20,277 nt of DNA from a virus, in IMG/VR virus record IMGVR_UViG_3300032242_000155, positions 1-20,277 of that record; one strand, given 5' to 3'. The notes below the pieces were generated by a model. It was given only the letters and a program-made list of their open reading frames with translations, was not told the DNA's origin and searched no databases. The translations under genes were made by a program, and so were the position numbers. Shown here piece by piece: positions 2,739 through 20,195 of this stretch. The stretch's first letter is position 1; each line of letters opens with the position of its first letter.

Positions 2739-4733
2739 ATGGCAGCAGCAGAGCAAAAAAAATCTTATGCTGTCTATAAGAACTTCAAAGGCCTAAACAC
2801 CAAGGCCAATAGAACAGCTATTGACGAGGAAGAGTTCTCCTGGATTGAGAACGCCATGCCTATTGGCTTTGGCAACATCAAGATTGTTCCTGCTCAAACC
2901 ACTGTCAAAGATTCTGGTAATGCCGCTGTGTCATTTGGCAATGTAGTCACCAGTCTGACCAGCTGCAATCTGGGCTTGTCTGACTACATTCTGGCTTTTG
3001 AAGCCAACGGACGGGGTGAATACTTCAAAGTAGATACGGCTACAAAAGGAAATGTGGCTGTTACTGGCACATTCTCATCCTCAAACGTCTCTGTTGCACA
3101 GTGGAAAAACGAAGAAATCTTCATAGGCGACCCTGACAAGGGTTTGTTCACCTGGAATGGCACAGATTTACTGGCTGTAGGTGGTGTAGGGCAGATTGGC
3201 CTCACAAACAGGGGTACAGGCTATGTCACTGCGCCAGCAGTCACTATTTCAGCTCCCAATCAATCAAATGGTGTTCAGGCTACAGCCACAGCCACCATCA
3301 CAGCCAATACCGTGTCCTCTATTGCCATCACCAACGGTGGTAGCGGGTACACAGCAGCACCTACAGTGACTCTTACAGGTGGTGGTGGTAGCGGTGCAAA
3401 TGCTATTGCCCAGGTTTTGACCTTCACCAAGGGTGCGCTTGCTATTCAGGTGACAAACAGCGGGTCTGGCTACAACCCTGCTTCACCTCCAAGCGTCACT
3501 ATCACCAGTGGTGGCGGTGCAAATGCAGCAGCTACAGCCATTGTGTACGGTAATGCGGTCACACAGGTCATCATGACCAACGTGGGTGACCACTACACCA
3601 GTGTTCCTACCATTGCCATTGCCGCACCTCCCACACCCACAGGAAACACCACTGCTACAGCTATAGGTGTGCCCAATCTAGACTCTATTTCCAGCGTGGC
3701 TACCTTTTCAGGCCGTGTCTGGGTGTCTACAGGACGAACGGTGACGTATTCGTCCAGCGTCACCCCTACTGATTTCACTTCTGTGTCTGCTGGCTCTCTG
3801 ACGCTTTCAGATTCCACCTTGCACGGCAACATTCAGTACATGATGTCTGCCAACAACTTTCTGTACATCTACGGGGATGACAGCATCAACGTGTTCTCAG
3901 ACGTTAGGGTAACTACTACAGGCTCTACGCTGTTCACCAACACCAACGTGTCTGCTTCTGTCGGTAGCAAGTTGAAATACGCTGTGTTCCCTTACTTCCG
4001 TTCAGTGTTGTTCATGAACAACTACGGTGTGTATGCCCTTGTTGGCTCTACCACCAGCAAGATTTCTGACCAGCTTGACGGTATCTTTCCCTATATCGAC
4101 TTCACCAAGCCCATTACAGGCGGTCAAGTCCTGCTCAACAACATCCTGTGTGCGGCATTCAACTTCTATTTGTCTTCAACCTACCCCTACGCTACAGGTG
4201 GCAGGTATGTACAGGCGGTGTTTTTTGAAAAGAAGTGGTTTATCACCAGCCAGGGTGCGCTGACATACACAACATCTGCTCCTGTAGGCGGGTTGATTAG
4301 CTTGTATGGGGTGACAGACACGGCTTTATATAAGCTGTACGGGGATGCAACTGCAAATGTCTCTAGCCAGATACAGACATCCCTGTCTCCCATGAAAGAC
4401 CCTATCCGTACCAAGCAAGCATTAAAGTTTGGTATTGAGGCTACTCTCACTACAGGAGGCACGTTAAATGTAACCGTGGATAGTGAGAGCGGTTCTAGTC
4501 CTGTTTACACGTTGAACAACAGTGTGACTTGGTACAACAATTCAGGGACAACAATCCCTTGGCAGAACAACAGTTTGGCGACAATAGGGTGGTTGACAAG
4601 TGCGGGGTATGCCCTGTACAAGTCAGATGCACAACAGTATGGTAAGTATTTGGGTTTGACGATGACTTCTTCTGACCCTGCATTTACCATTAACACAATC
4701 GAGTTTGAACACGAATTGAGAGTGAGGTTCTAA
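2739..4733 (+). CDS. Tail nozzle / DNA-stabilisation-like protein with a repeat insert
   Basis: This 664-residue protein begins 2 bases after the adaptor stop. The N-terminus ([20 protein letters not shown]) matches the opening of beta-propeller nozzle proteins of the P22 gp10 type, which start with a short 'few or no gaps from the contig' strand pairing region. The later stretch [20 protein letters not shown] followed by TPTDF is the usual 'F.GRv.v..g..v..S....ptdF' blade signature. Between them, residues about 152-312 hold four imperfect repeats built on G-x-G-Y ([53 protein letters not shown]). No enzymatic motif is seen. The position between adaptor and fibres fits a nozzle. A distinct tail-hub role cannot be excluded. 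Confidence 0.7.
3192..3674 (+). repeat. Four G-x-G-Y repeats inside the nozzle-like gene
   Basis: Residues about 152-312 of the nozzle-like protein contain four degenerate units of 38-42 residues, each starting TN-x-G-(T/S/D)-G/H-Y and continuing to a P-x-V/I-x-I strand. They are separated by Ala/Thr/Gly-rich linkers. The sequence before and after reads as continuous propeller-like protein, so the repeats look like an insertion. Confidence 0.7.
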
Positions 4734-7444: not shown

Positions 7445-7669
7445 ATGGATAACCAACAAATCTTCAACGGCATAGTCAGCATTGCTGGCTTTCTTGCCGT
7501 GTACGTCATCAATACAACGACCAGACAGATTCAAAAACTGGAGGACAAAATAAATGAATTACCTAAAGAATATGTGGCAAAAGATGATTACCGCAATGAC
7601 ATTGCTGAAGTCAAAGATATTCTCAAACAAATCTTCAACAAGCTAGACAACAAGGCAGACAAAAATTGA
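7445..7669 (+). CDS. Small membrane protein with coiled-coil tail
   Basis: This 74-residue protein begins 1 base after the second fibre stop, without a clear ribosome site, so translation probably depends on coupling. Residues about 7-24 (FNGIVSIAGFLAVYVINT) form one hydrophobic segment, followed by a long charged helix (RQIQKLEDKINELPKEYVAK, then DIAEVKDILKQIFNKLDNK) with heptad spacing. That architecture recalls small phage lysis or membrane-anchoring proteins such as spanin-like or antiholin-like factors. It lies far from the lysis cassette, and no family is recognised, so the function is unknown. Confidence 0.7.
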   Translation: MDNQQIFNGIVSIAGFLAVYVINTTTRQIQKLEDKINELPKEYVAKDDYRNDIAEVKDILKQIFNKLDNKADKN

Positions 7670-7694
7670 ACATTGCATTACACTCTCATATGTT
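7666..7694 (+). promoter_or_regulatory. Candidate sigma70-type promoter for the endonuclease gene
   Basis: TTGAAC at 7666-7671 and TATGTT at 7689-7694 are separated by exactly 17 bases. Each matches 4 of 6 consensus positions. They lie just before the endonuclease ribosome site at 7703-7709. The match is modest and could arise by chance. Confidence 0.35.
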
Positions 7695-7702
7695 AAATAC
7701 AC

Positions 7703-7709
7703 AGGAGAG
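7703..7709 (+). promoter_or_regulatory. Ribosome site that fixes the endonuclease start
   Basis: AGGAGAG lies 4 bases before the ATG at 7714. An in-frame TTG at 7666 has no comparable site and would add 16 residues unlike the family start. Confidence 0.65.
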
Positions 7710-7713
7710 TGTT

Positions 7714-8202
7714 ATGGGTAGACTTTTCAAGGATAAAACTGGTCAGCGTTTTGGTCGATTGGTGGTCAAAGAACTGATTTCTAAAAAACCTGTTGCAAAG
7801 TGGGTTTGTGTTTGTGATTGTGGAAATGAGACCCAAGTTTGGGGCGGTCATTTGAAGAGTGGTGTCACTCGTTCTTGTGGTTGTTTATTGACTGATTTCA
7901 ATAAGTCAAGTCATAAAACGCATGGAATGACCAAAACAAGAACGTACAAATCATGGCGTTCAATGAAGATGCGGTGCACGTTGCCATCAATGGCTAATTA
8001 CAAGAATTATGGTGGCAAAGGTATTGGGTTTGATGAATCATGGAATGACTTCAATAAATTCTATGAAGACATGGGTGAGCGTCCAGAAGGCATGAGCTTG
8101 GACAGGATTGACAACAACAAGGGCTACAGCAAAGAAAATTGCCGATGGTCAAATGCAAAAACTCAAGCAAATAATCGTACTCAAAGGAAACCAAAAGTAT
8201 GA
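7714..8202 (+). CDS. HNH/AP2-type homing endonuclease-like protein
   Basis: This 162-residue protein is of the free-standing nuclease type common in phages. Residues 9-20 (TGQRFGRLVVKE) lead into a Cys cluster, WVCVCDCGN (C32, C34, C36) and SCGC (C55, C57), that looks like a small zinc knuckle. The second half has YKSWRSMKMRC, NYGGKGI, W110 and FNKFYEDMGERPEGMSLDRI, then DNNKGYSKENCRWSNAKTQA and NNR. The D-R-x-D-N-N...E-N-C-R-W pattern is the usual nuclease core. It would nick or cut DNA and promote its own spread. It interrupts the virion operon between unrelated small genes, has its own ribosome site and possible promoter, and overlaps the next gene by an ATGA. Activity is not shown. Confidence 0.75.
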   Translation: MGRLFKDKTGQRFGRLVVKELISKKPVAKWVCVCDCGNETQVWGGHLKSGVTRSCGCLLTDFNKSSHKTHGMTKTRTYKSWRSMKMRCTLPSMANYKNYGGKGIGFDESWNDFNKFYEDMGERPEGMSLDRIDNNKGYSKENCRWSNAKTQANNRTQRKPKV

Positions 8203-10009: not shown

Positions 10010-11026
10010 ATGGCAACGCTAAAGAAAATGACCCGCATGGGCGCAGATGTGCGTCAGATTGCTAAATTGCTTCAAGCAAAAGCTCCTGAAGGGCACATGC
10101 TTGCCTACATCACCCCAGAAGAAGCTGCCCTGCTAAAAGCCCAAGGTGGTAGTGGTAAGCCCCATGCTGACACTGGCATTCCATCTTTTGAAGATGAGAG
10201 CATGTCTTTTGAGTCTAACTATCCTACTGGTGACGTAACTACTCAGCCTGTTGAGACACCTACCACTCCTGTAAGCACAGCTATGCCACCTGCGCCAGCC
10301 GCTGCTCCAGCACCATATCAGGCCGAAAGACCTATGGCTGCACCTGACTACACCTCTTTTGTCCCGCAGTTTGCACCTACGGCTGCACCCACAATTTCAA
10401 CCACAACCACTGCACCAACAGGCGTGACAACACCTGGCCCTGCTTTTGGTGAAACTCCAACACTTGAAAAACCTGCTCCAACAGTCACTGAGCCTAGCTT
10501 CTTGGATAAGCTCAAGACTGGTTTGTCAAAGGAAGAGACTCTTGCCAAGCTCGGTATTGGTGGTGTCCAGGCTTTGTTGGGTGGTTTGTCAGCCCGTAAA
10601 GCCGCTGAACAAGGCCAAGCTGGTAAGCAAGAGATGCAAGCCCTTGCCGCACCTTACCAGCAACAAGGTCAACAACTGGCTACCGCTGCCCAACGTGGTG
10701 AACTTACACCTGCCAGTCAACAGCAGTTACAGGCTGCTCAAGCTCAACTTGCCCAACAAGCCACTGCCCGTGGCGGTGTAGGCGCACAGCAAGCAGCCAC
10801 CCAGATTGAGGCTTTCCGCAACCAGCTTCTCCAGCAACAGTATGACTACGGTTTGAAACTGTCTGGTATTGGTGACCAGATTGCTCTGGGTGCTATCAAG
10901 ACAGGTATGCAAGCTGACCAGTACGTCAACAACTTGACCAGCAGTTACTACAATAACATTGCCCGTACCCTGTATGGCGCACCTGCACAAACTCAGCAAC
11001 AGCAAACTGTTACAGGAGCAGCGTAA
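10010..11026 (+). CDS. Ejection / internal-virion-like protein 2, Pro- and Gln-rich
   Basis: This 338-residue protein starts directly after the previous stop, with GGGAG as ribosome site. The N-terminus (ATLKKMTRMGADVRQIAKLL, then QAKAPEGHMLAYITPEEAAL) is a small helical domain. Residues about 70-160 are Pro/Ala/Thr-rich and probably unfolded. Residues about 165-290 are helical and Gln/Ala-rich (QQLATAAQRGELTPASQQQL, QAAQAQLAQQATARGGVGAQ), typical of internal virion proteins that thread through the tail. The end is Gln/Thr-rich. The gene stop overlaps the next ATG in TAATG at 11024-11028. It fits a podovirus ejection protein, with the family unnamed. Confidence 0.65.
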   Translation: MATLKKMTRMGADVRQIAKLLQAKAPEGHMLAYITPEEAALLKAQGGSGKPHADTGIPSFEDESMSFESNYPTGDVTTQPVETPTTPVSTAMPPAPAAAPAPYQAERPMAAPDYTSFVPQFAPTAAPTISTTTTAPTGVTTPGPAFGETPTLEKPAPTVTEPSFLDKLKTGLSKEETLAKLGIGGVQALLGGLSARKAAEQGQAGKQEMQALAAPYQQQGQQLATAAQRGELTPASQQQLQAAQAQLAQQATARGGVGAQQAATQIEAFRNQLLQQQYDYGLKLSGIGDQIALGAIKTGMQADQYVNNLTSSYYNNIARTLYGAPAQTQQQQTVTGAA

Positions 11027-12402
11027 TGGCTACGCAAGCACTTGGTGATGCCTTAAAAACAAATATGTCTAAGCAGCCGAGGCTGACTGCGGGTGAAACA
11101 TATATGCAATCTGTTGACCCCACCTTGACTGAACTCAAAGGTGCGGAAGAGCAGAAGATGAAAGCCGAGAAAGAGAAGGCTATTTTTGCTGGTGAGAGCG
11201 AATCCAGACGGCAACAGGCATTGGCAAAAGCAACAGAAGCAGAAGCTACTGCCATGCGGGAAGACCCTGCCCGTGCCCAATATGAAGAAAAGATTCAAGA
11301 AAAATCCAGAGCCGAATTCATTCCTTCCCAAGAGAATGCACAGGATATGGCTGCACTGTTCAGCCTGATGAACGTCATTGGCTTTGCTGTTGGTTCTGGT
11401 GGAAAAGCACATGCACAACAAGCTATGTCAGCCATGAACGGGATGCTGGAAGGCCATCAAAAAGGCCGTGATGACCTGTACAAACAACAGAAAAACATCT
11501 TTGAAACCAACCAGAAGCAGTTGGACAAGAAGATTGATGACCTGTACAAGTTCATGCAAGAAAACACCAAGCTGTACGCCAGAGACAAAGTGGCTGCTGA
11601 ACAGAATGCAAATGCCAAGTTTGCAGAAGAAGGTGCTGGTTTTCTGAAGTCGTATTACGAGAAGTATGGCCCTGGCCCTGCACTTGAATACATGAAGCAG
11701 GTTGTCAAGGCAAAAGAACATGCCGCTGACCTGACTGACAAAGAAAGAACACGTGCTGAACAGCAAGCCTTCCGATTGCAACAAGCATCTATTGCTGCTC
11801 AAGCCAAGAAAGATGCTGCGGCTGGACGGACAACCGCTAGTGAAATGCGGCGTGAAGACAAAATAAGAGAGATGACGCAAGGTGTTCGCAGTATTGAAAA
11901 CTTGCAAAACCAGTTGCGTGACCCAGATGTCCGTGCTGGTTTGCAAGCAAAAGCAGCTCCCTTGCTGGAAAAGATTGGTTCTCTAGGCGGTGCAGAATTT
12001 GAAACGGCAGTCAACAACGCTTTGACAGGAACAGACAAAACAACTTTGTTCTTGAAAGACGCATTGCTGGAAACATACGCTATCGAACGTGCTGCCAAAG
12101 GTGGTCAGCGTTTGACTGTGCAAGACATGAAGATGGTCGGCCCTGTGCTTGACCCGACAAATTACTCTGCCGATACATACAACGCATTGTTGGATTCAAG
12201 ACGCAAAGTCCTGTACAACAACTTGCAAGATATGAATATGACACCTGCACAGATTAAGGAAAAGTCTGCTCAGAAGCCTTACGAGCCTTATGCTGGCGAA
12301 CAAGTTCCTACCGTTACAACTCAAGAGCAGTACAACGCTTTGTCTCCAGGTGCTTACTATCTTGAAGACGGTGTTCGGTATCAAAAGCCAGGGAGAAAAT
12401 AA
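11026..12402 (+). CDS. Ejection / internal-virion-like protein 3, coiled coil
   Basis: This 458-residue protein is dominated by charged helix. Residues about 35-110 (ELKGAEEQKMKAEKEKAIFA, EKIQEKSRAEFIPSQENAQD) and about 150-300 (KKIDDLYKFMQENTKLYARD, RAEQQAFRLQQASIAAQAKK) look like coiled coil. A central MAALFSLMNVIGFAVGSGG piece is more hydrophobic. The C-terminal part ends in a basic, Tyr-rich tail (LSPGAYYLEDGVRYQKPGRK), a form often seen at the end of internal virion proteins. It sits between proteins 2 and 4 of the series, coupled to both by TAATG overlaps. It is likely part of the same ejection machine. No enzymatic motif is visible. Confidence 0.65.
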   Translation: MATQALGDALKTNMSKQPRLTAGETYMQSVDPTLTELKGAEEQKMKAEKEKAIFAGESESRRQQALAKATEAEATAMREDPARAQYEEKIQEKSRAEFIPSQENAQDMAALFSLMNVIGFAVGSGGKAHAQQAMSAMNGMLEGHQKGRDDLYKQQKNIFETNQKQLDKKIDDLYKFMQENTKLYARDKVAAEQNANAKFAEEGAGFLKSYYEKYGPGPALEYMKQVVKAKEHAADLTDKERTRAEQQAFRLQQASIAAQAKKDAAAGRTTASEMRREDKIREMTQGVRSIENLQNQLRDPDVRAGLQAKAAPLLEKIGSLGGAEFETAVNNALTGTDKTTLFLKDALLETYAIERAAKGGQRLTVQDMKMVGPVLDPTNYSADTYNALLDSRRKVLYNNLQDMNMTPAQIKEKSAQKPYEPYAGEQVPTVTTQEQYNALSPGAYYLEDGVRYQKPGRK

Positions 12403-14729
12403 TGCCTAGCAAGTTTGGCGGTATTCCTGTTGATGAAAAACCAACCACAGGTTCTAAATTTGGTGGTGTTGCTGTAGAAGAGCCAGTGGAAACTCCTGCC
12501 GCTCCATCTGCCGCTTTGCCCAAAAAAGTTCCTGACTTGTTGCCGCCAGGATATTTTGATGAGACAAAATTAAAAGCAAGTCCTGTTGGCGCAATGCAAA
12601 AAGGTTTGGCTTTGGGTGGAGAAGAAATTGGCATTGCTGGCAAGCAGTTAATGTCAGGGTTCAAATCTACTCCTGAACAAGAAAAACGATTAAAAGAGAT
12701 TGAGCAAGAGGCTTCCAAGCTACCTTTTTATGGAAGGGCAATGCGATATGCACCAGAAGTCGCTGCGGCTGTTCCTGCTGCTTTTGCTGTTCCTGAGATT
12801 GCTACCGCTGGTGGTCTTGCCACTGCTTTGGGTTTGGGTGGTTTGAGTTCCACTATTACACAACCAGTCAGAAAAGCCTCTGAAGGTGGCAAATTCTTAA
12901 AAGAAAAAGGCAAACAGTTTGTTACTGGTGCTGAAGAATCTGGCCTTGGTCTTGGTTTGGGTACTGCTGTACAAGCTGTTCCTGGATTGCTGAAAACTGT
13001 TGGAAAATACACTATTGGTACATCTCAGCCTGAAATTGATGCTTTGGCACGTGCGGCTGAAAAAGAAGGGTTTGTGCTTGAGCCTGGTCAGTTGCGTAAA
13101 GACAAGCCTGTTGGTACTCCTGGATTCATGGAAGCAGCCAAAGCAAAGAACGAAAAGATTGCTACCAAGCTGTCATCAAAAACTACTGGCAAAGAAACAG
13201 AAAACATTACGCCTGAGTTTTTGAGTGGTCGTAAGAAAGAGTTGAGTAAAGAGTACGACACCATATTTGGACGCAATCTGACTATTGACTCCAAGCTGGT
13301 AGGCGAGTTGCAGAAGATGAAAGAGTTTGAAATGGCTGTTTCTCCTGCTGGAGTTACACCTGTTCGCTCAACTGCCAACAACATCATTGACCGCTGGAAT
13401 ACAGAATTAGCCAACGCTCAACAAAAGACTATTGACAATAATCTCAAACGAATCTTGCAACAACAAGGTCGTGGAGGTGTTCAGCCAATAGTTCGGCTGC
13501 GTAAAGACTGGCCTACTATTCGGGATTCATCTTCTCCCAACGTGCCTGAGTGGGCATCATCTGTTGAGAAAACAATTACTGAGTTGTCTGACAGCTTGGG
13601 ATTGAAAACAACACCAAAGATGTGGGTCAGTTCACCACGCCGTGAGGGTTTGTACGGCATGGCTACGGGTGACGGTCACATTGTCATCAATGACAAGCTG
13701 GATGCCAAAGGTGCGCTTGCCACTGCTTTGCATGAGTTTGGTCACCAAGCTGAATTCCAGCTTTTTGCTTATGCTCCAAAAGAAACACGTACAGAAGTCA
13801 TCAAAGCCTTTAACCAGCAGATGCAGTCCATCCCTGTTGGTGTCAAAACTATTGAGCAGCACAGACCAATTACTTCCGAGAAATATGGTGAGTCTCGCAA
13901 ACAAATTCCAGACAGAAAGTTTGAAACTGGTTATTTGCGTGACTTTTCAGAATGGTTTGCAGAGCAGACTTCTCGCTGGATAACTACGTCCAAGACTCCT
14001 ACAACTGTTGTTGAGAAGTTTTTCAAAGACGTTGCAGACAGTTGGAAGAAGATTTACCAAAAAGTCAGTGGCTATGTGCCTATGGTTGATGAAGTTGATA
14101 AATTCTTCAGGTCAAATTGGAAGGGTGACTTGATGCAATCTGTCAGTCAAGAAGCCTCTGCTATGGCGAAGTCAACTGAACCAGTTGCAGTTTTGGGCAA
14201 AGACTTGACTGCCGCTATTGATGGCAGAGAGTTGCAACGCTTGCGGGAAAACATGACTCGTATTGCTCGCACCGCCACAGACGGTAGAGACAGAGAGGTT
14301 GCTGGAAATTTTGTCACTGCCATTGATGATGCTATTGGTCGGCAAGACAGAGCATTGCTGGATAGGTTGCGTCAAACAAACAGGCAATATGCTGCCACAG
14401 CTACTTTGGCTGACGGTATTGAAAAAGGGTTTGTGTCTGGCGGTAAGGTCAGCCTGGAAGGACTTGGCAAGTATTTGGCAAACAGAGTCTATGGGTATGG
14501 CAGCGGTACATCTCAGCATCCGCTGTATGAGCTTGGCTACATGGGTAAGGCTTTGGGTCTGCGCTCACGTGCCGAGGGTATCAACATCCCTGAAGACAAA
14601 TTGATTTCAGCCCTGGCTGGTAGGTCAAAACAGTTGTTGGGTGGTATTGCTGGCGCAAGGTCACAGACTGCCAGAGACATTCAAAGAAAATTGACAGAAG
14701 AAGAGATACGTACAGCAGGAAAACCATAA
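12402..14729 (+). CDS. Large ejection-like protein with zincin metallopeptidase motif
   Basis: This 775-residue protein is the last and largest of the internal-virion series. The start MPSKFGGIPVDEK is echoed by GSKFGGVAVEEP. Residues about 105-135 are Ala/Val/Gly-rich and hydrophobic. Residues 444-448 are HEFGH, a zincin HEXXH signature, preceded by ATGDGHIVINDKLDAKGALA. A likely third metal ligand lies in FSEWFAEQTSRW (E517 or E521). The C-terminal third is helical (LQRLRENMTRIARTATDGRD, LLDRLRQTNRQYAATATLAD), similar to phage DNA-transfer proteins. It may cut a peptide or cell-wall bond, or process a virion protein. The zinc site is seen, but the substrate is unknown. Its start is coupled to the previous gene by TAATG. 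Confidence 0.65.
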   Translation: MPSKFGGIPVDEKPTTGSKFGGVAVEEPVETPAAPSAALPKKVPDLLPPGYFDETKLKASPVGAMQKGLALGGEEIGIAGKQLMSGFKSTPEQEKRLKEIEQEASKLPFYGRAMRYAPEVAAAVPAAFAVPEIATAGGLATALGLGGLSSTITQPVRKASEGGKFLKEKGKQFVTGAEESGLGLGLGTAVQAVPGLLKTVGKYTIGTSQPEIDALARAAEKEGFVLEPGQLRKDKPVGTPGFMEAAKAKNEKIATKLSSKTTGKETENITPEFLSGRKKELSKEYDTIFGRNLTIDSKLVGELQKMKEFEMAVSPAGVTPVRSTANNIIDRWNTELANAQQKTIDNNLKRILQQQGRGGVQPIVRLRKDWPTIRDSSSPNVPEWASSVEKTITELSDSLGLKTTPKMWVSSPRREGLYGMATGDGHIVINDKLDAKGALATALHEFGHQAEFQLFAYAPKETRTEVIKAFNQQMQSIPVGVKTIEQHRPITSEKYGESRKQIPDRKFETGYLRDFSEWFAEQTSRWITTSKTPTTVVEKFFKDVADSWKKIYQKVSGYVPMVDEVDKFFRSNWKGDLMQSVSQEASAMAKSTEPVAVLGKDLTAAIDGRELQRLRENMTRIARTATDGRDREVAGNFVTAIDDAIGRQDRALLDRLRQTNRQYAATATLADGIEKGFVSGGKVSLEGLGKYLANRVYGYGSGTSQHPLYELGYMGKALGLRSRAEGINIPEDKLISALAGRSKQLLGGIAGARSQTARDIQRKLTEEEIRTAGKP

Positions 14730-16467: not shown

Positions 16468-17067
16468 ATGGAGGTCAAGGCTACTGTAGATGAGGCGGTA
16501 GGTGTAGCCAAAGAAGTACAAGGGTTTTGGTCAAAGTTGTTTGGTGCAAAGCCAGAAGCTCCCAAGCCTGTTGCCAAGAAGAAAGAGAAGTTTGTTGCCG
16601 TTGACGAAACCAAGGTCATGGCAGATGTGGTCAAGCAACTGACCGAGTTCTTCCGCTTACAAGAGCAACTTGCCGCTCACATCCGAGCAGAAGAAGAAAA
16701 ATCCCGCAACGTCTACGACCCTGAACAGAACCACATGGAAGCGGCTCTGAACAGGGTGATGGCGCTTGACCAAATGGCTGCACTGGAAGTGACAATCAGG
16801 GAAACAATGGTTTACCAGTCCCCGCCCGAAATGGGTGCACTGTACTCAAAAGTGTTTGAAATGAGAGACACTATCAAGGAGGAGCAGGAGCAAGCACGAT
16901 TGGCCCAGGAAGCCAAGGAAAGGTACAGGAAATGGCAACTACGCCAACGAGCAGAAAGGTTAAAGGCTCAAGCAGCATGGCTGGTGGGAACAGTAATTCT
17001 TCTTGGATACCTCCACCTTTGGTTTCTCCTCCTCAACCGAATGAAGGAAATGAATCAGCCCTTTTGA
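16468..17067 (+). CDS. Coiled-coil protein with C-terminal membrane segment
   Basis: This 199-residue protein from the first ATG has a long charged helix (residues about 50-165; QEQARLAQEAKERYRKWQLR) and a single hydrophobic segment at about 168-190 (AAWLVGTVILLGYLHLWFLL), so it would be a tail-anchored coiled coil. The frame is open upstream to 16375 and encodes sensible protein there (IDPISILFAANACVAAIKEG), with GAGGTG placed correctly for ATT at 16375 but no site before 16468. The true start is probably upstream, through ATT or through a frameshift in CCCC at 16380-16383. Its 3' end overlaps the next gene by 136 bases. Role unknown. It may belong to the lysis module. Confidence 0.65.
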   Translation: MEVKATVDEAVGVAKEVQGFWSKLFGAKPEAPKPVAKKKEKFVAVDETKVMADVVKQLTEFFRLQEQLAAHIRAEEEKSRNVYDPEQNHMEAALNRVMALDQMAALEVTIRETMVYQSPPEMGALYSKVFEMRDTIKEEQEQARLAQEAKERYRKWQLRQRAERLKAQAAWLVGTVILLGYLHLWFLLLNRMKEMNQPF

Positions 17068-17318
17068 TGGCGGTCATATTCCTGGTTGTTTTGTTAGGTT
17101 TGATATTGCCTGTCATGGCTTTCCTGTATCTTGACATTCTGGCTGTCAAACATGAAACTAAAGCTCAAATTGAGAAAGTAGAAAGATTGCGCCGTGACTT
17201 GGAAAGGGATAAGCGTGACAAAAAGCCTGATTCTTTTAACGACAATCCTGTTTTTGACAGGGTGCGAAGACCGCTATCGCTATCCATGCCAAGACCCCCA
17301 GAATTGGGGAAAGCCTGA
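16932..17318 (+). CDS. Single-TM protein with coiled-coil tail, spanin-like layout
   Basis: This 128-residue protein has a polar, Pro/Ser/Asn-rich start, one membrane segment (about residues 43-67; LLMAVIFLVVLLGLILPVMA), then a charged helix (VKHETKAQIEKVERLRRDLE, then RDKRDKK) with heptad spacing. The ATG at 16977 (MAGGNSNSSW) is a fair alternative start. The gene overlaps the upstream coiled-coil gene by 136 bases and the lipoprotein gene downstream by 104 bases, each in another frame. The layout (N-terminal TM, coiled coil, overlapping lipoprotein) imitates an Rz/Rz1 pair, but the clear Rz/Rz1 pair is further downstream. It may be a second envelope-spanning partner or an unrelated membrane protein. 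Confidence 0.6.
   Translation: MATTPTSRKVKGSSSMAGGNSNSSWIPPPLVSPPQPNEGNESALLMAVIFLVVLLGLILPVMAFLYLDILAVKHETKAQIEKVERLRRDLERDKRDKKPDSFNDNPVFDRVRRPLSLSMPRPPELGKA
17203..17209 (+). promoter_or_regulatory. Ribosome site that fixes the lipoprotein start
   Basis: AAAGGGA lies 5 bases before the GTG at 17215. The earlier in-frame GTG at 17194 would add 7 residues and spoil a compact signal peptide. Confidence 0.55.
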
Positions 17319-17409
17319 ATGTGAACCGCCTGCATGTGAAGCCTCTGGTACATGCACTAAAGACTTGATTCCAAAGGATATTTATGACAAGTTCAAGAAG
17401 AACTCCTGA
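17215..17409 (+). CDS. Small phage lipoprotein, Cys-rich, embedded in overlapping genes
   Basis: From GTG 17215 the product is 64 residues. Residues 1-17 (MTKSLILLTTILFLTGC when GTG is read as Met) are a textbook lipoprotein signal peptide with LTGC lipobox, so C17 would be lipidated and the protein anchored to a membrane facing the periplasm. E at +2 favours the outer membrane. The mature part EDRYRYPCQDPQNWGKPECE continues with four further cysteines (C25, C36, C41, C47), able to form two disulfides. It overlaps the TM protein by 104 bases and the holin candidate by 26. I recall similar small Cys-rich lipoproteins in aquatic phage genomes, of unknown function. It is not the Pro-rich Rz1 type. 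Confidence 0.7.
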   Translation: MTKSLILLTTILFLTGCEDRYRYPCQDPQNWGKPECEPPACEASGTCTKDLIPKDIYDKFKKNS

Positions 17410-17722
17410 AGAGTGGCACGCTCTTGGTCAATTTGTCACCCAAGTGGGCTTTGTTGCCTGTCTGGTTGGTGGAGTGTTTGGTGTGCTGTACTGCTTCATC
17501 TTTGTCACTCAGCCTATGGTGGGTCAGGCCAAGAACGATGCAGTCTTGTTTGAAATCTTGAAGACTGTGCTGACCAGCATGATTTCCATTATTGGTACGT
17601 TGATGGCGGTAGGCCACGGTAGCAATGCCACAGCCCTTCCTGCCAAGCCTCCAGCACCACCCGTGCCGCAAGTGCCTGTCAAGCCCTTGTCTGCCAACCT
17701 GCCACCTACGGAAGTGCCATGA
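17384..17722 (+). CDS. Holin candidate, two TM segments
   Basis: This 112-residue protein starts 26 bases inside the end of the lipoprotein gene, with AAAGGA at 17373-17378. It has two membrane segments, about residues 19-41 (VGFVACLVGGVFGVLYCFIF) and 58-76 (LKTVLTSMISIIGTLMAVG). A charged N-terminus and a Pro-rich C-tail (PAKPPAPPVPQVPVKPLSA) flank them. Two-TM topology, size and its place between lipoprotein, Rz/Rz1 and endolysin fit a class II-like holin that makes the membrane lesion through which endolysin reaches the wall. Its stop is coupled to the Rz start by ATGA. The holin call is by layout and context only. Confidence 0.6.
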   Translation: MTSSRRTPEEWHALGQFVTQVGFVACLVGGVFGVLYCFIFVTQPMVGQAKNDAVLFEILKTVLTSMISIIGTLMAVGHGSNATALPAKPPAPPVPQVPVKPLSANLPPTEVP

Positions 17723-18198
17723 GCTTATTCAATCCTTATGTTTTGCTTGGTATTGTTTTGGCTGTTGTGTCTGCCTTTGGTGGAGGGTATTACAAAGGCG
17801 GTCATGATGAAACAGTGCGTCAAGAGATAGAGATTGCCAAGCTCAACGCTGAAGCTAGACAAAAAGAACAGGCACTGACTGCCGCTGTTAATGCACAAGC
17901 CACTCAACTTGCAAAGGCGAATCAAAATGCAAAACTCATTCAACAAAAGCGCAATACTGATATTGACTCTGGTGCTCTCCAGTTGCGGATTCCTGTCAAA
18001 ACCATCTGCCCCGTATCAACCCCCGACAATCCCGCCCCTGCCAGCGGAAATAGCGTTCAAGCAACAGCCGAACTTGACAGAGAGGTTGCTAAATCTCTTG
18101 TCGCCATCACAGACCAAGGAGATGCCAACACCAGGCAACTCAACGCCTGTATCGACGCCTACAACTCAGCCTACCAAACCTTGAAAGGAAAACCATGA
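17719..18198 (+). CDS. Rz: Inner-membrane spanin (Rz-like)
   Basis: This 159-residue protein has an N-terminal membrane segment (residues about 7-26; YVLLGIVLAVVSAFGGGYYK) followed by a periplasmic coiled coil (HDETVRQEIEIAKLNAEARQ, then KEQALTAAVNAQATQLAKAN). The C-terminal part ends in LVAITDQGDANTRQLNACID then AYNSAYQTL, the usual Rz ending. Spanins link inner and outer membrane and fuse them at the end of lysis, with an outer-membrane lipoprotein partner. That partner is encoded fully inside this gene in another frame. It is followed by the endolysin through an ATGA overlap. High confidence in the assignment. Confidence 0.85.
   Translation: MSLFNPYVLLGIVLAVVSAFGGGYYKGGHDETVRQEIEIAKLNAEARQKEQALTAAVNAQATQLAKANQNAKLIQQKRNTDIDSGALQLRIPVKTICPVSTPDNPAPASGNSVQATAELDREVAKSLVAITDQGDANTRQLNACIDAYNSAYQTLKGKP
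17913..17917 (+). promoter_or_regulatory. Ribosome site for nested Rz1
   Basis: AAAGG lies 9 bases before the ATG at 17927. It supports a start there rather than at the earlier in-frame ATG at 17891. Confidence 0.45.
17927..18184 (+). CDS. Rz1: Outer-membrane spanin lipoprotein (Rz1-like), nested in Rz
   Basis: This 85-residue protein lies wholly inside Rz in another frame. Residues 1-20 (MQNSFNKSAILILTLVLSSC) are a lipoprotein signal peptide with LSSC lipobox, so the mature protein starts at C20. A Pro-rich stretch follows (PSAPYQPPTIPPLPAEIAF), a hallmark of Rz1, then NLTERLLNLLSPSQTKEM and a Pro/Thr-rich end. It would pair with Rz across the periplasm. The ATG at 17891 adds 12 charged residues before the signal and is less likely. 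The nested arrangement is the classical one. Confidence 0.8.
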   Translation: MQNSFNKSAILILTLVLSSCGFLSKPSAPYQPPTIPPLPAEIAFKQQPNLTERLLNLLSPSQTKEMPTPGNSTPVSTPTTQPTKP

Positions 18199-18623
18199 AC
18201 TTGTCAGAAAACTTTACCTACGAAGAACTCACCCACACTGACCACCGTGAGTTTGACAACACACCCAACGAAGACGAGATGGCGAACCTGGTTCGTCTGG
18301 CAAACTTTCTTGAGCAGGTGAAAGAAGTCTTGGGTGGCAAGCCCATCATGATTAACTCAGCTTTCCGTTCTGCCGAGGTCAACAAGGCTGTGGGTTCTAC
18401 CGACAAGTCTCAGCACCGTCATGGCTGTGCTGCCGACATCCGTGTTCCTGGCATGACCCCAGATGAAGTGGTGACTGCCATCATCAATTCTGGTCTGCCT
18501 TACGACCAATGTATCCGTGAGTTTGACCGCTGGACACATGTCTCCATCCCCAACCATGAAGACATCCAGCCTAGAGCTATGGCTCTCATCATTGATAAGT
18601 CAGGAACTAGAGAATATGCCTAA
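18195..18623 (+). CDS. Endolysin, peptidase M15-type
   Basis: This 142-residue protein is a zinc peptidase of the M15 (D-Ala-D-Ala carboxypeptidase / L-Ala-D-Glu endopeptidase-like) family. The core motif S-x-H-x2-G-x-A-x-D is visible as SQHRHGCAAD (H74, D81), preceded by INSAFRSAEVNKAVGSTDKS, and the third metal ligand is H115 in DRWTHVSI. The N-terminus (MNLSENFTYEELTHTDHREF) also matches the family. No signal peptide is seen, so it should need the holin to reach the wall and cleave peptide bonds in peptidoglycan. It is coupled to Rz by ATGA at 18195-18198. Its 3' end overlaps the next gene by 8 bases. Confidence 0.85.
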   Translation: MNLSENFTYEELTHTDHREFDNTPNEDEMANLVRLANFLEQVKEVLGGKPIMINSAFRSAEVNKAVGSTDKSQHRHGCAADIRVPGMTPDEVVTAIINSGLPYDQCIREFDRWTHVSIPNHEDIQPRAMALIIDKSGTREYA

Positions 18624-18992: not shown

Positions 18993-19452
18993 CATGAACC
19001 TTCTGTAGCTCACACAGCAGGTGTGGGCCGTGATAACGCATTTCATTTATGTGAAATGCACCCTTGAACCCGTACTGCTTTGCCCAGGTCTTCTGGTCAT
19101 CAAAGTATTCATAAAACGTATCTGGCGTGATGATGTTCACATGTGTCGGGTCTTGGAAAGCCGCACTGTGTGGGAAAGCAGGAGTAGATGACAAGAACTT
19201 TCCTCCCACCTTCATCACCCTGAATATCTCTGACATCAGTTCGACAAACGGGTATCTGCGTTGTGGGACATACAACAGTCTGGGAATGTGTTCCAGAAAG
19301 TCGTAGGCGGTCACGTAGTCAAAATACTCGTTAGCGTAGGGGATAGGCTCAATAGCAAGGTCAGCGTCCTCAATATCAAGCCCTATCACCTGGTTTGCTT
19401 GGTAAGGGTTGCGGATGGTTTCTCCGCACCCAAGGTCAAGAGAGATGGTCAT
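18982..19452 (-). CDS. SAM-dependent methyltransferase, class I
   Basis: This 156-residue protein on the minus strand begins with the SAM-binding motif SLDLGCGETIRNPY, followed by VIGLDIEDADLAIE (acidic end of strand 2). It then has YANEYFDYVTAYDFLEHIPR and the MSEIFRVMKVGGKFLSSTPA segment typical of small class I methyltransferases. It is short compared with full-length members and has no target-recognition domain. Coupled by ATGA at 19449-19452 to the glycosyltransferase upstream, it probably works on a sugar or other small substrate in the same pathway, rather than on DNA, but the substrate cannot be read from sequence. Confidence 0.75.
   Translation of the reverse strand: MTISLDLGCGETIRNPYQANQVIGLDIEDADLAIEPIPYANEYFDYVTAYDFLEHIPRLLYVPQRRYPFVELMSEIFRVMKVGGKFLSSTPAFPHSAAFQDPTHVNIITPDTFYEYFDDQKTWAKQYGFKGAFHINEMRYHGPHLLCELQKVHVNV
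19038..19059. other. Perfect 8-base inverted repeat inside the methyltransferase gene
   Basis: GCATTTCA and TGAAATGC flank a 6-base loop. It lies near the convergent operon ends but has no T-run on either side, so it is a weak hairpin and not a clear terminator. Confidence 0.4.
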
Positions 19453-20195
19453 GGTGCAGGGACTAAGCCACCTTCAAAAAGGTAGCTACCAAAGTGACCC
19501 AGAACCACCCAGGGAGCAGCATGAATCTTGTACCCATGTCTACGGGCTTCCTGACAGAAATAGTAGTCTTCTGACAACAAGCGTCCTACGCCCTCTTCAA
19601 TCGCACAGGCAAAGAATTCAACAATCCTGTCATTCTTGATTTCGCCAGAGAGGAAGGTTACGTCATTGACATAGCTGTTCATCTTTGTTGCCAGGTCTTC
19701 CAGTACCTCACGCTTGATAAGCATGAACCCTGTACCACCGTTCCAGATTTCCACAGGCTCATGTGCTGGTACTGTGACTGTTCCTTGGTAGTCAACCAGG
19801 TTAACCACCAGGCTACCTGTACGGGTCTTCAGTTGGTCAACAGCTACGCCATCTTTGACAGCTTGCTCAACACCATGCCAGTTAATTTCTTTCTTAGGAT
19901 AGATGCCGCAGAGGATGTCCTTGTCTGCCTCAATCATCTTCACGATGTCAGCAGGATTCCAGCGAATATCTGCGTCAATAAACATCAGATGGGTGGCTTC
20001 TTTCTTCTGGAGGAAACCGTGTGCCAGAGCGTTCCTGCCACGCTGGATAAGGCTTTCGTTAAACATGCAAGAAAAGGACATGTCAATGTCGTTAGCTCGC
20101 ATGACAGCGGTTGTGTTGACCAGTGACTGACAGTAGTAGCCAGTGGTCATGCCACCATACATAGGTGTTGCGATGAAGATGTGTGCTTTGCTCAT
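19449..20195 (-). CDS. GT-A type glycosyltransferase
   Basis: This 248-residue minus-strand protein starts HIFIATPMYGGMTTGYYCQS, the usual opening of a nucleotide-sugar-binding fold. ATHLMFIDADIRWNPADIVK carries the DxD motif (D74-x-D76) that binds metal and the sugar nucleotide. GGTGFMLIKREVLEDL, SEDYYFCQEARRHGYKIHAA (residues 208-227) and the H234 of LGHFGSYLFEG complete the GT-A pattern. It probably glycosylates a phage or host surface component. It forms a coupled pair with the methyltransferase downstream. No membrane segment or signal peptide is visible. Confidence 0.8.
   Translation of the reverse strand: MSKAHIFIATPMYGGMTTGYYCQSLVNTTAVMRANDIDMSFSCMFNESLIQRGRNALAHGFLQKKEATHLMFIDADIRWNPADIVKMIEADKDILCGIYPKKEINWHGVEQAVKDGVAVDQLKTRTGSLVVNLVDYQGTVTVPAHEPVEIWNGGTGFMLIKREVLEDLATKMNSYVNDVTFLSGEIKNDRIVEFFACAIEEGVGRLLSEDYYFCQEARRHGYKIHAAPWVVLGHFGSYLFEGGLVPAP

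Follow-up and report, generated by a model that had tools for sequence, protein, structure and literature searches.

Gene neighbourhood of the ejection-type protein

The window, by which we mean the whole stretch of 20,277 bases that was analysed, is a virus record with podovirus-type genes, including a major capsid protein that matches NCBIfam capsid_maj_Podo (E=3e-35) and an SU10-type adaptor. Three ejection-type genes lie adjacent to each other, and a peptidase gene is found apart from them:

10010-11026, + strand: partner gene 1 (338 aa), order conserved in zincin-bearing and zincin-less relatives
11026-12402, + strand: partner gene 2 (458 aa), directly upstream in zincin-bearing and zincin-less relatives
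12402-14729, + strand: ejection-type protein (775 aa) with the zincin cassette and a phrog_26400 match
18195-18623: separate M15 peptidase gene

The third gene, whose start sits in the stop of the 458-aa partner gene (TAATG), is the subject of this work. At 775 aa its product hardly deserves the name of giant protein used in a preliminary description of this DNA; the label ejection-like found there is supported by phrog_26400, 'DNA ejection protein', which covers residues 110-332 (E=3e-9). The same PHROG is matched by 10 of 25 family members, and phrog_4529, 'minor head protein and DNA pilot', by four. On the basis of PHROG annotation and gene position, the product is probably encoded by the last gene of a short-tailed phage's ejection cassette, which comprises three genes. 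Examination for membrane spans revealed no strongly hydrophobic segment in it (maximum 19-residue hydropathy 1.37).

The functional models for the ejection proteins of short-tailed phages are gp7, gp20 and gp16 of P22 and gp14-16 of T7. As in those three-protein ejectosomes, three proteins are encoded in the window, the 775-aa gene being the last of three adjacent ones, but the window protein has its zincin in the middle, whereas the transglycosylase of T7 gp16 is N-terminal. No P22 or T7 protein was seen to match the window protein in sequence. Among named phages, MW202753.1 has the nearest capsid gene (82% nucleotide identity). In the place of the third ejection gene (20348-22249) it has one for a protein of 633 aa, in which little similarity to the 775-aa product is detectable; it seems that the ejection gene has been exchanged. 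That phage also has an MPTase-PolyVal domain (E=4e-52), found in an antirestriction protein of ArdC type encoded at 33681-34589 (-).

The HExxH motif and the predicted fold

The preliminary description had pointed to HEFGH at residues 444-448 and to a downstream candidate for the third metal ligand. Both are indeed present within 13560-13990, the second as E517, invariant in 26 sequences, in FSEWFAEQ (residues 515-522). The protein is laid out as follows, the coordinates of FSEWFAEQTSRW having been derived by arithmetic:

13029-13406, + strand: backbone core 1, residues 210-335, also in zincin-less relatives
13407-13529, + strand: variable linker before the zincin, residues 336-376, a long helix with a low-confidence break at 355-360
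13530-14126, + strand: zincin domain, residues 377-575, from model, VIA-align, alignment and dN/dS
13731-13745, + strand: HEFGH, residues 444-448, with H444 and H448 as predicted metal ligands and E445 as predicted general base
13932-13934, + strand: Y511, invariant, possibly a transition-state residue
13944-13979, + strand: FSEWFAEQTSRW from residue 515, with E517 as predicted third metal ligand and E521 as predicted second-shell residue
14127-14207, + strand: variable low-confidence linker after the zincin, residues 576-602
14208-14591, + strand: backbone core 2, residues 603-730, also in zincin-less relatives

An HExxH motif arises in 37 of 20,000 shuffles of the 775-aa protein (composition expects 0.0026), so that its chance occurrence amounts to about 0.2% before homologs are counted; a chance origin is excluded by the invariance of the active-site residues in 26 sequences, the most distant of which are about 20% identical. 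Gluzincins have an ExxxD/E spacing on the helix of the third ligand, the first Glu being the ligand. The ExxxE spacing of E517 and E521 presumably corresponds to this arrangement, with E517 as the predicted ligand.

A domain model was built by AlphaFold2 with 24 sequences (mean pLDDT 80, core about 82-95). Its secondary structure elements follow in DSSP the order H20-34, E41-45, E54-57, E61-65, H70-91 and H150-163, which is the topology of a zincin: a helix, three strands, the HExxH helix, an insert and then the Glu helix with EWFAE. E517 and E521 are found on one helix (domain-model residues 150-163), and HExxH and ExxxE are on adjacent helices of the predicted fold. The top structural matches in VIA-align were mostly HExxH metallopeptidases, led by HtpX (Z 7.0), the Thermus hypothetical protein TTHA0227 (6.6) and SPRTN/Wss1 (5.7), followed by selecase (5.6), ArdC (5.1) and IrrE (4.8), and a Foldseek search of the domain model against the PDB gave no match with E < 0.001. 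A Z below 8 is by itself weak, and it is the combination of the structural Z values with the invariant site that makes the zincin fold convincing. In the structural comparison proposed in the preliminary description, the zincin-type metal-site domain suggested there is in this way supported by the model: the domain convincingly has a predicted fold of gluzincin type with a conserved predicted metal site.

At the sequence level, searches of Pfam, NCBIfam and PDB sequences assigned the window zincin to no family with significance, and single members of the zincin family reached E values of only 0.0005 (to M78) to 0.015 (to SprT). M48 HtpX/BepA, SprT/SPRTN/Wss1 and M78 IrrE share the predicted fold and the HExxH helix with the window zincin but no significant sequence similarity with the window protein. 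Weak matches of the latter to CTD7 and ATP-grasp were taken as chance.

An HExxH site might also belong to a different metal enzyme, such as the HExxH alpha-ketoglutarate oxygenases, or hold a structural metal, in which case the domain would not be a protease. One HExxH oxygenase, 8s5f, is found among the structural matches (Z 5.1), although it aligns at 7.1 Å rmsd, worse than the peptidases that make up most of the matches, and work on N4 mentions HExxH in radical-SAM-associated enzymes (PMC12633501). Given the gluzincin-like invariance of ExxxE and of the catalytic Glu, we see little chance for a non-proteolytic site.

Conservation and selection

A domain-profile scan of IMG/VR, which relied partly on motif patterns, yielded 30 loci, and tblastn added one named phage, Microcystis phage Mae-Yong1326-1, with the domain inside a 2441-aa protein. 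H444, E445, H448, Y511, F515, E517, W518, A520, E521 and P533 are invariant in the 26 aligned sequences. Control scans by backbone patterns, independent of the zincin motifs, gave proteins that either have an intact zincin or cleanly lack it, and no others; they include an intact zincin whose own motifs lie outside the patterns of the first scan (L122) and a further zincin-less backbone (L127). Homologs keeping the domain but losing a His or the Glu, named in the preliminary description as a reason to abandon the idea, were looked for and none was found, the backbone-only scans giving intact copies as well. Neither degenerate copies nor other domains occupy the slot in 75 backbone homologs or in L122.

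The zincin (residues 377-575) was the best-conserved segment in 17/17 comparisons of the window with zincin-bearing homologs, leaving aside L008, a near-identical sister in which both backbone cores equal it in conservation. Moreover, in each of the five pairs that allowed the calculation, dN/dS was lower for the zincin than for the rest of the protein: 0.026 vs 0.067 for the closest pair, the window and L002, and 0.077/0.165, 0.020/0.087, 0.111/0.158 and 0.126/0.194 for the other four. As judged from these ratios, the domain is under strong purifying selection, which together with its top conservation argues against an insert that has decayed or has only a structural function. Since independent contigs show the same architecture, an assembly artefact can be excluded.

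A plus/minus cassette in the ejection backbone

The cassette comprises about 265 aa, with the zincin peptidase within about 200 aa, and is held on variable linkers between two helical parts of the backbone. Two zincin-less phages align with the window protein before residue 335 and after residue 603, the zincin being simply missing. Among the 75 backbone homologs, defined as those with both core parts and including some near-copies, slot lengths are bimodal without any intermediate: 7-27 aa in 52, with HExxH in none, and 264-322 aa in the remaining 23, all with an intact zincin. No zincin was detected elsewhere in the records of 10 zincin-less relatives, two of them complete, and its relocation is ruled out for these ten records. 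The 338-aa and 458-aa genes are located upstream in the same order in phages of both kinds. Altogether, the bimodal slot, the zincin-less records and the synteny of the partners indicate that the zincin is optional and lies outside the basic ejection machine. The backbone tree needs three changes (gain or loss of the zincin), and a topology with all zincins in one clade is not rejected (p-AU 0.475). Closely related phages with and without the cassette constitute natural plus/minus pairs.

Such a distribution also bears on the roles that had originally been offered. One of them, the processing of other ejection proteins, is disfavoured in its essential form because zincin-less relatives use homologous partner proteins. 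Another was the opening of the wall, where the domain would cut the cross-link peptides of peptidoglycan in place of the transglycosylase of T7 gp16, in line with the fact that ejection proteins swap enzymatic domains, peptidoglycan hydrolases included (PMC8954989). However, nothing else is found in the slot of the zincin-less relatives, the separate M15 peptidase gene fits the wall-opening job, and the fold neighbours are protein peptidases, so that this role, the least likely of the three, seems to us very improbable. To our knowledge, HExxH gluzincins are not typical murein hydrolases.

Zincins in other injected proteins

The preliminary description had considered a zincin less familiar inside a virion. 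In fact, zincin-like MPTases are the commonest domain of the injected 'polyvalent' proteins of phages and plasmids, including the N4 virion RNA polymerase and P1 DdrB (Iyer et al. 2017, PMC5512222), and the existence of zincins in injected phage proteins is therefore already established. In the N4 enzyme, a zincin-type HExxH domain is located in the C-terminal part (PMC12633501). The polyvalent MPTases (PMC5512222) resemble the window zincin in having HExxH and a Glu on the next helix, in their core of a helix, three strands and two helices, and in being carried by phage proteins thought to be injected, and homologs of the window zincin co-occur with LPD1, LPD22 and LPD38. Unlike the polyvalent multi-enzyme giants, the carrier of the window type is an ejection protein of 700-830 aa. 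The window protein itself combines one enzymatic domain with the ejection backbone and has no LPD match, whereas LPD domains do occur in distant proteins that carry the same zincin.

Homologous zincins were also found in virion-type proteins of 1300-2500 aa. Three of these giant carriers have LPD1, LPD22 or LPD38, and two match virion structural PHROGs. In Methylobacterium sp. WL119 the zincin is found in a prophage-like locus downstream of a transglycosylase-bearing protein, and a scan of Methylobacterium relatives revealed one clear copy in 199 genomes. The giant protein of Microcystis phage Mae-Yong1326-1 (5157-12482), which also has LPD1, contains a second HExxH, HEWAH, at residue 1329, and that of another locus (L051, 6891-13142) a second one as well, HEIGH, which suggests from the motifs two zincins per polypeptide in both.

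Membership in MPTase-PolyVal (PF18818) was considered and rejected. No family member was matched by it in the Pfam scan, the zincins of the giant-protein records gave no match even at E up to 10, and a profile comparison of the zincin family with an ArdC-like MPTase-PolyVal member aligned only 18 columns. No description of a zincin in a small ejection protein was found among the open-access papers searched. New, as far as sequence comparison goes, are a domain family missed by Pfam and the fact that it is cleanly present or absent as an insertion in an ejection protein of small size.

Proposed role at entry

We propose, with a probability of roughly 0.7, that the domain is an active gluzincin-type peptidase that is packaged and ejected, and that acts at or just after entry, the target being either a host protein or the ejection protein that carries it. 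Zinc would be held by H444, H448 and E517, and E445 would activate the water. The 775-aa protein would be packaged and then ejected with its two partner proteins, and during or just after entry the peptidase would cut either a host protein or the ejection protein to which it belongs, in the latter case setting a piece of it free. Since relatives make do with homologous ejection proteins that lack the zincin, we favour an accessory role at this stage; for the same reason, essential processing of the common partner proteins is disfavoured.

For the target, an attack on the host, the remaining role of the preliminary description, is given somewhat less than even odds. The injected zincin would cleave a periplasmic or cytoplasmic protein, for instance one of defence or of the envelope, a role consistent with its accessory distribution over an otherwise common ejection cassette, with a domain more conserved than its scaffold and with the presence of the same domain in giant polyvalent-type proteins. 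Self-processing is the less probable option. Here the zincin would cut its own protein, for example at the flanking linkers, before packaging or after ejection, and so free parts of it. Both flanks are variable, and the linker at 576-602 is of low confidence; in addition, P1 DdrB, with a C-terminal zincin, is processed before packaging, autoprocessing being favoured by Iyer et al. (PMC5512222). The N4 virion RNA polymerase, however, has a zincin-like domain and yet is packaged unprocessed (PMC5512222), the linkers of the window family lack a conserved recognition sequence (identity of the second is 4-32% beyond the closest relative), and a connection of 7-27 aa between the backbone halves is enough for zincin-less relatives to function.

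The most specific version of the host-directed reading, in which a separate zincin family forms an all-or-nothing cassette in the ejection protein of small podophages and serves as an injected effector whose protease activity is directed at a host protein upon entry, is put forward only tentatively. If true, related phages would provide natural plus/minus pairs for finding the target of such an effector. Finding the substrates of injected polyvalent zincins is hampered by their usual place in huge multi-domain proteins; a small ejection protein with a zincin as its sole such domain, and numerous relatives from which just the cassette is missing, make the choice between self-processing and host attack testable by a single active-site change.

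Other genes of the window

Next to the M15 peptidase gene, two nested reading frames with lipoprotein-like signals (17719-18198 and, in another frame, 17891-18184) look like overlapping spanin genes, and a second lipoprotein-like frame (17194-17409) overlaps 16932-17318. In the late-gene region, the reading frame at 7666-8202 (+) resembles, as judged by eye, a homing endonuclease of HNH/AP2 type. A head-closure (Hc2)-like protein is encoded at 2739-4733 (+), with glycine-rich repeats common to tail-fibre and baseplate PHROGs. Finally, a glycosyltransferase-like gene at 19449-20195 (-) has a relative near the same end of another record (L004, 3833-4630, -).
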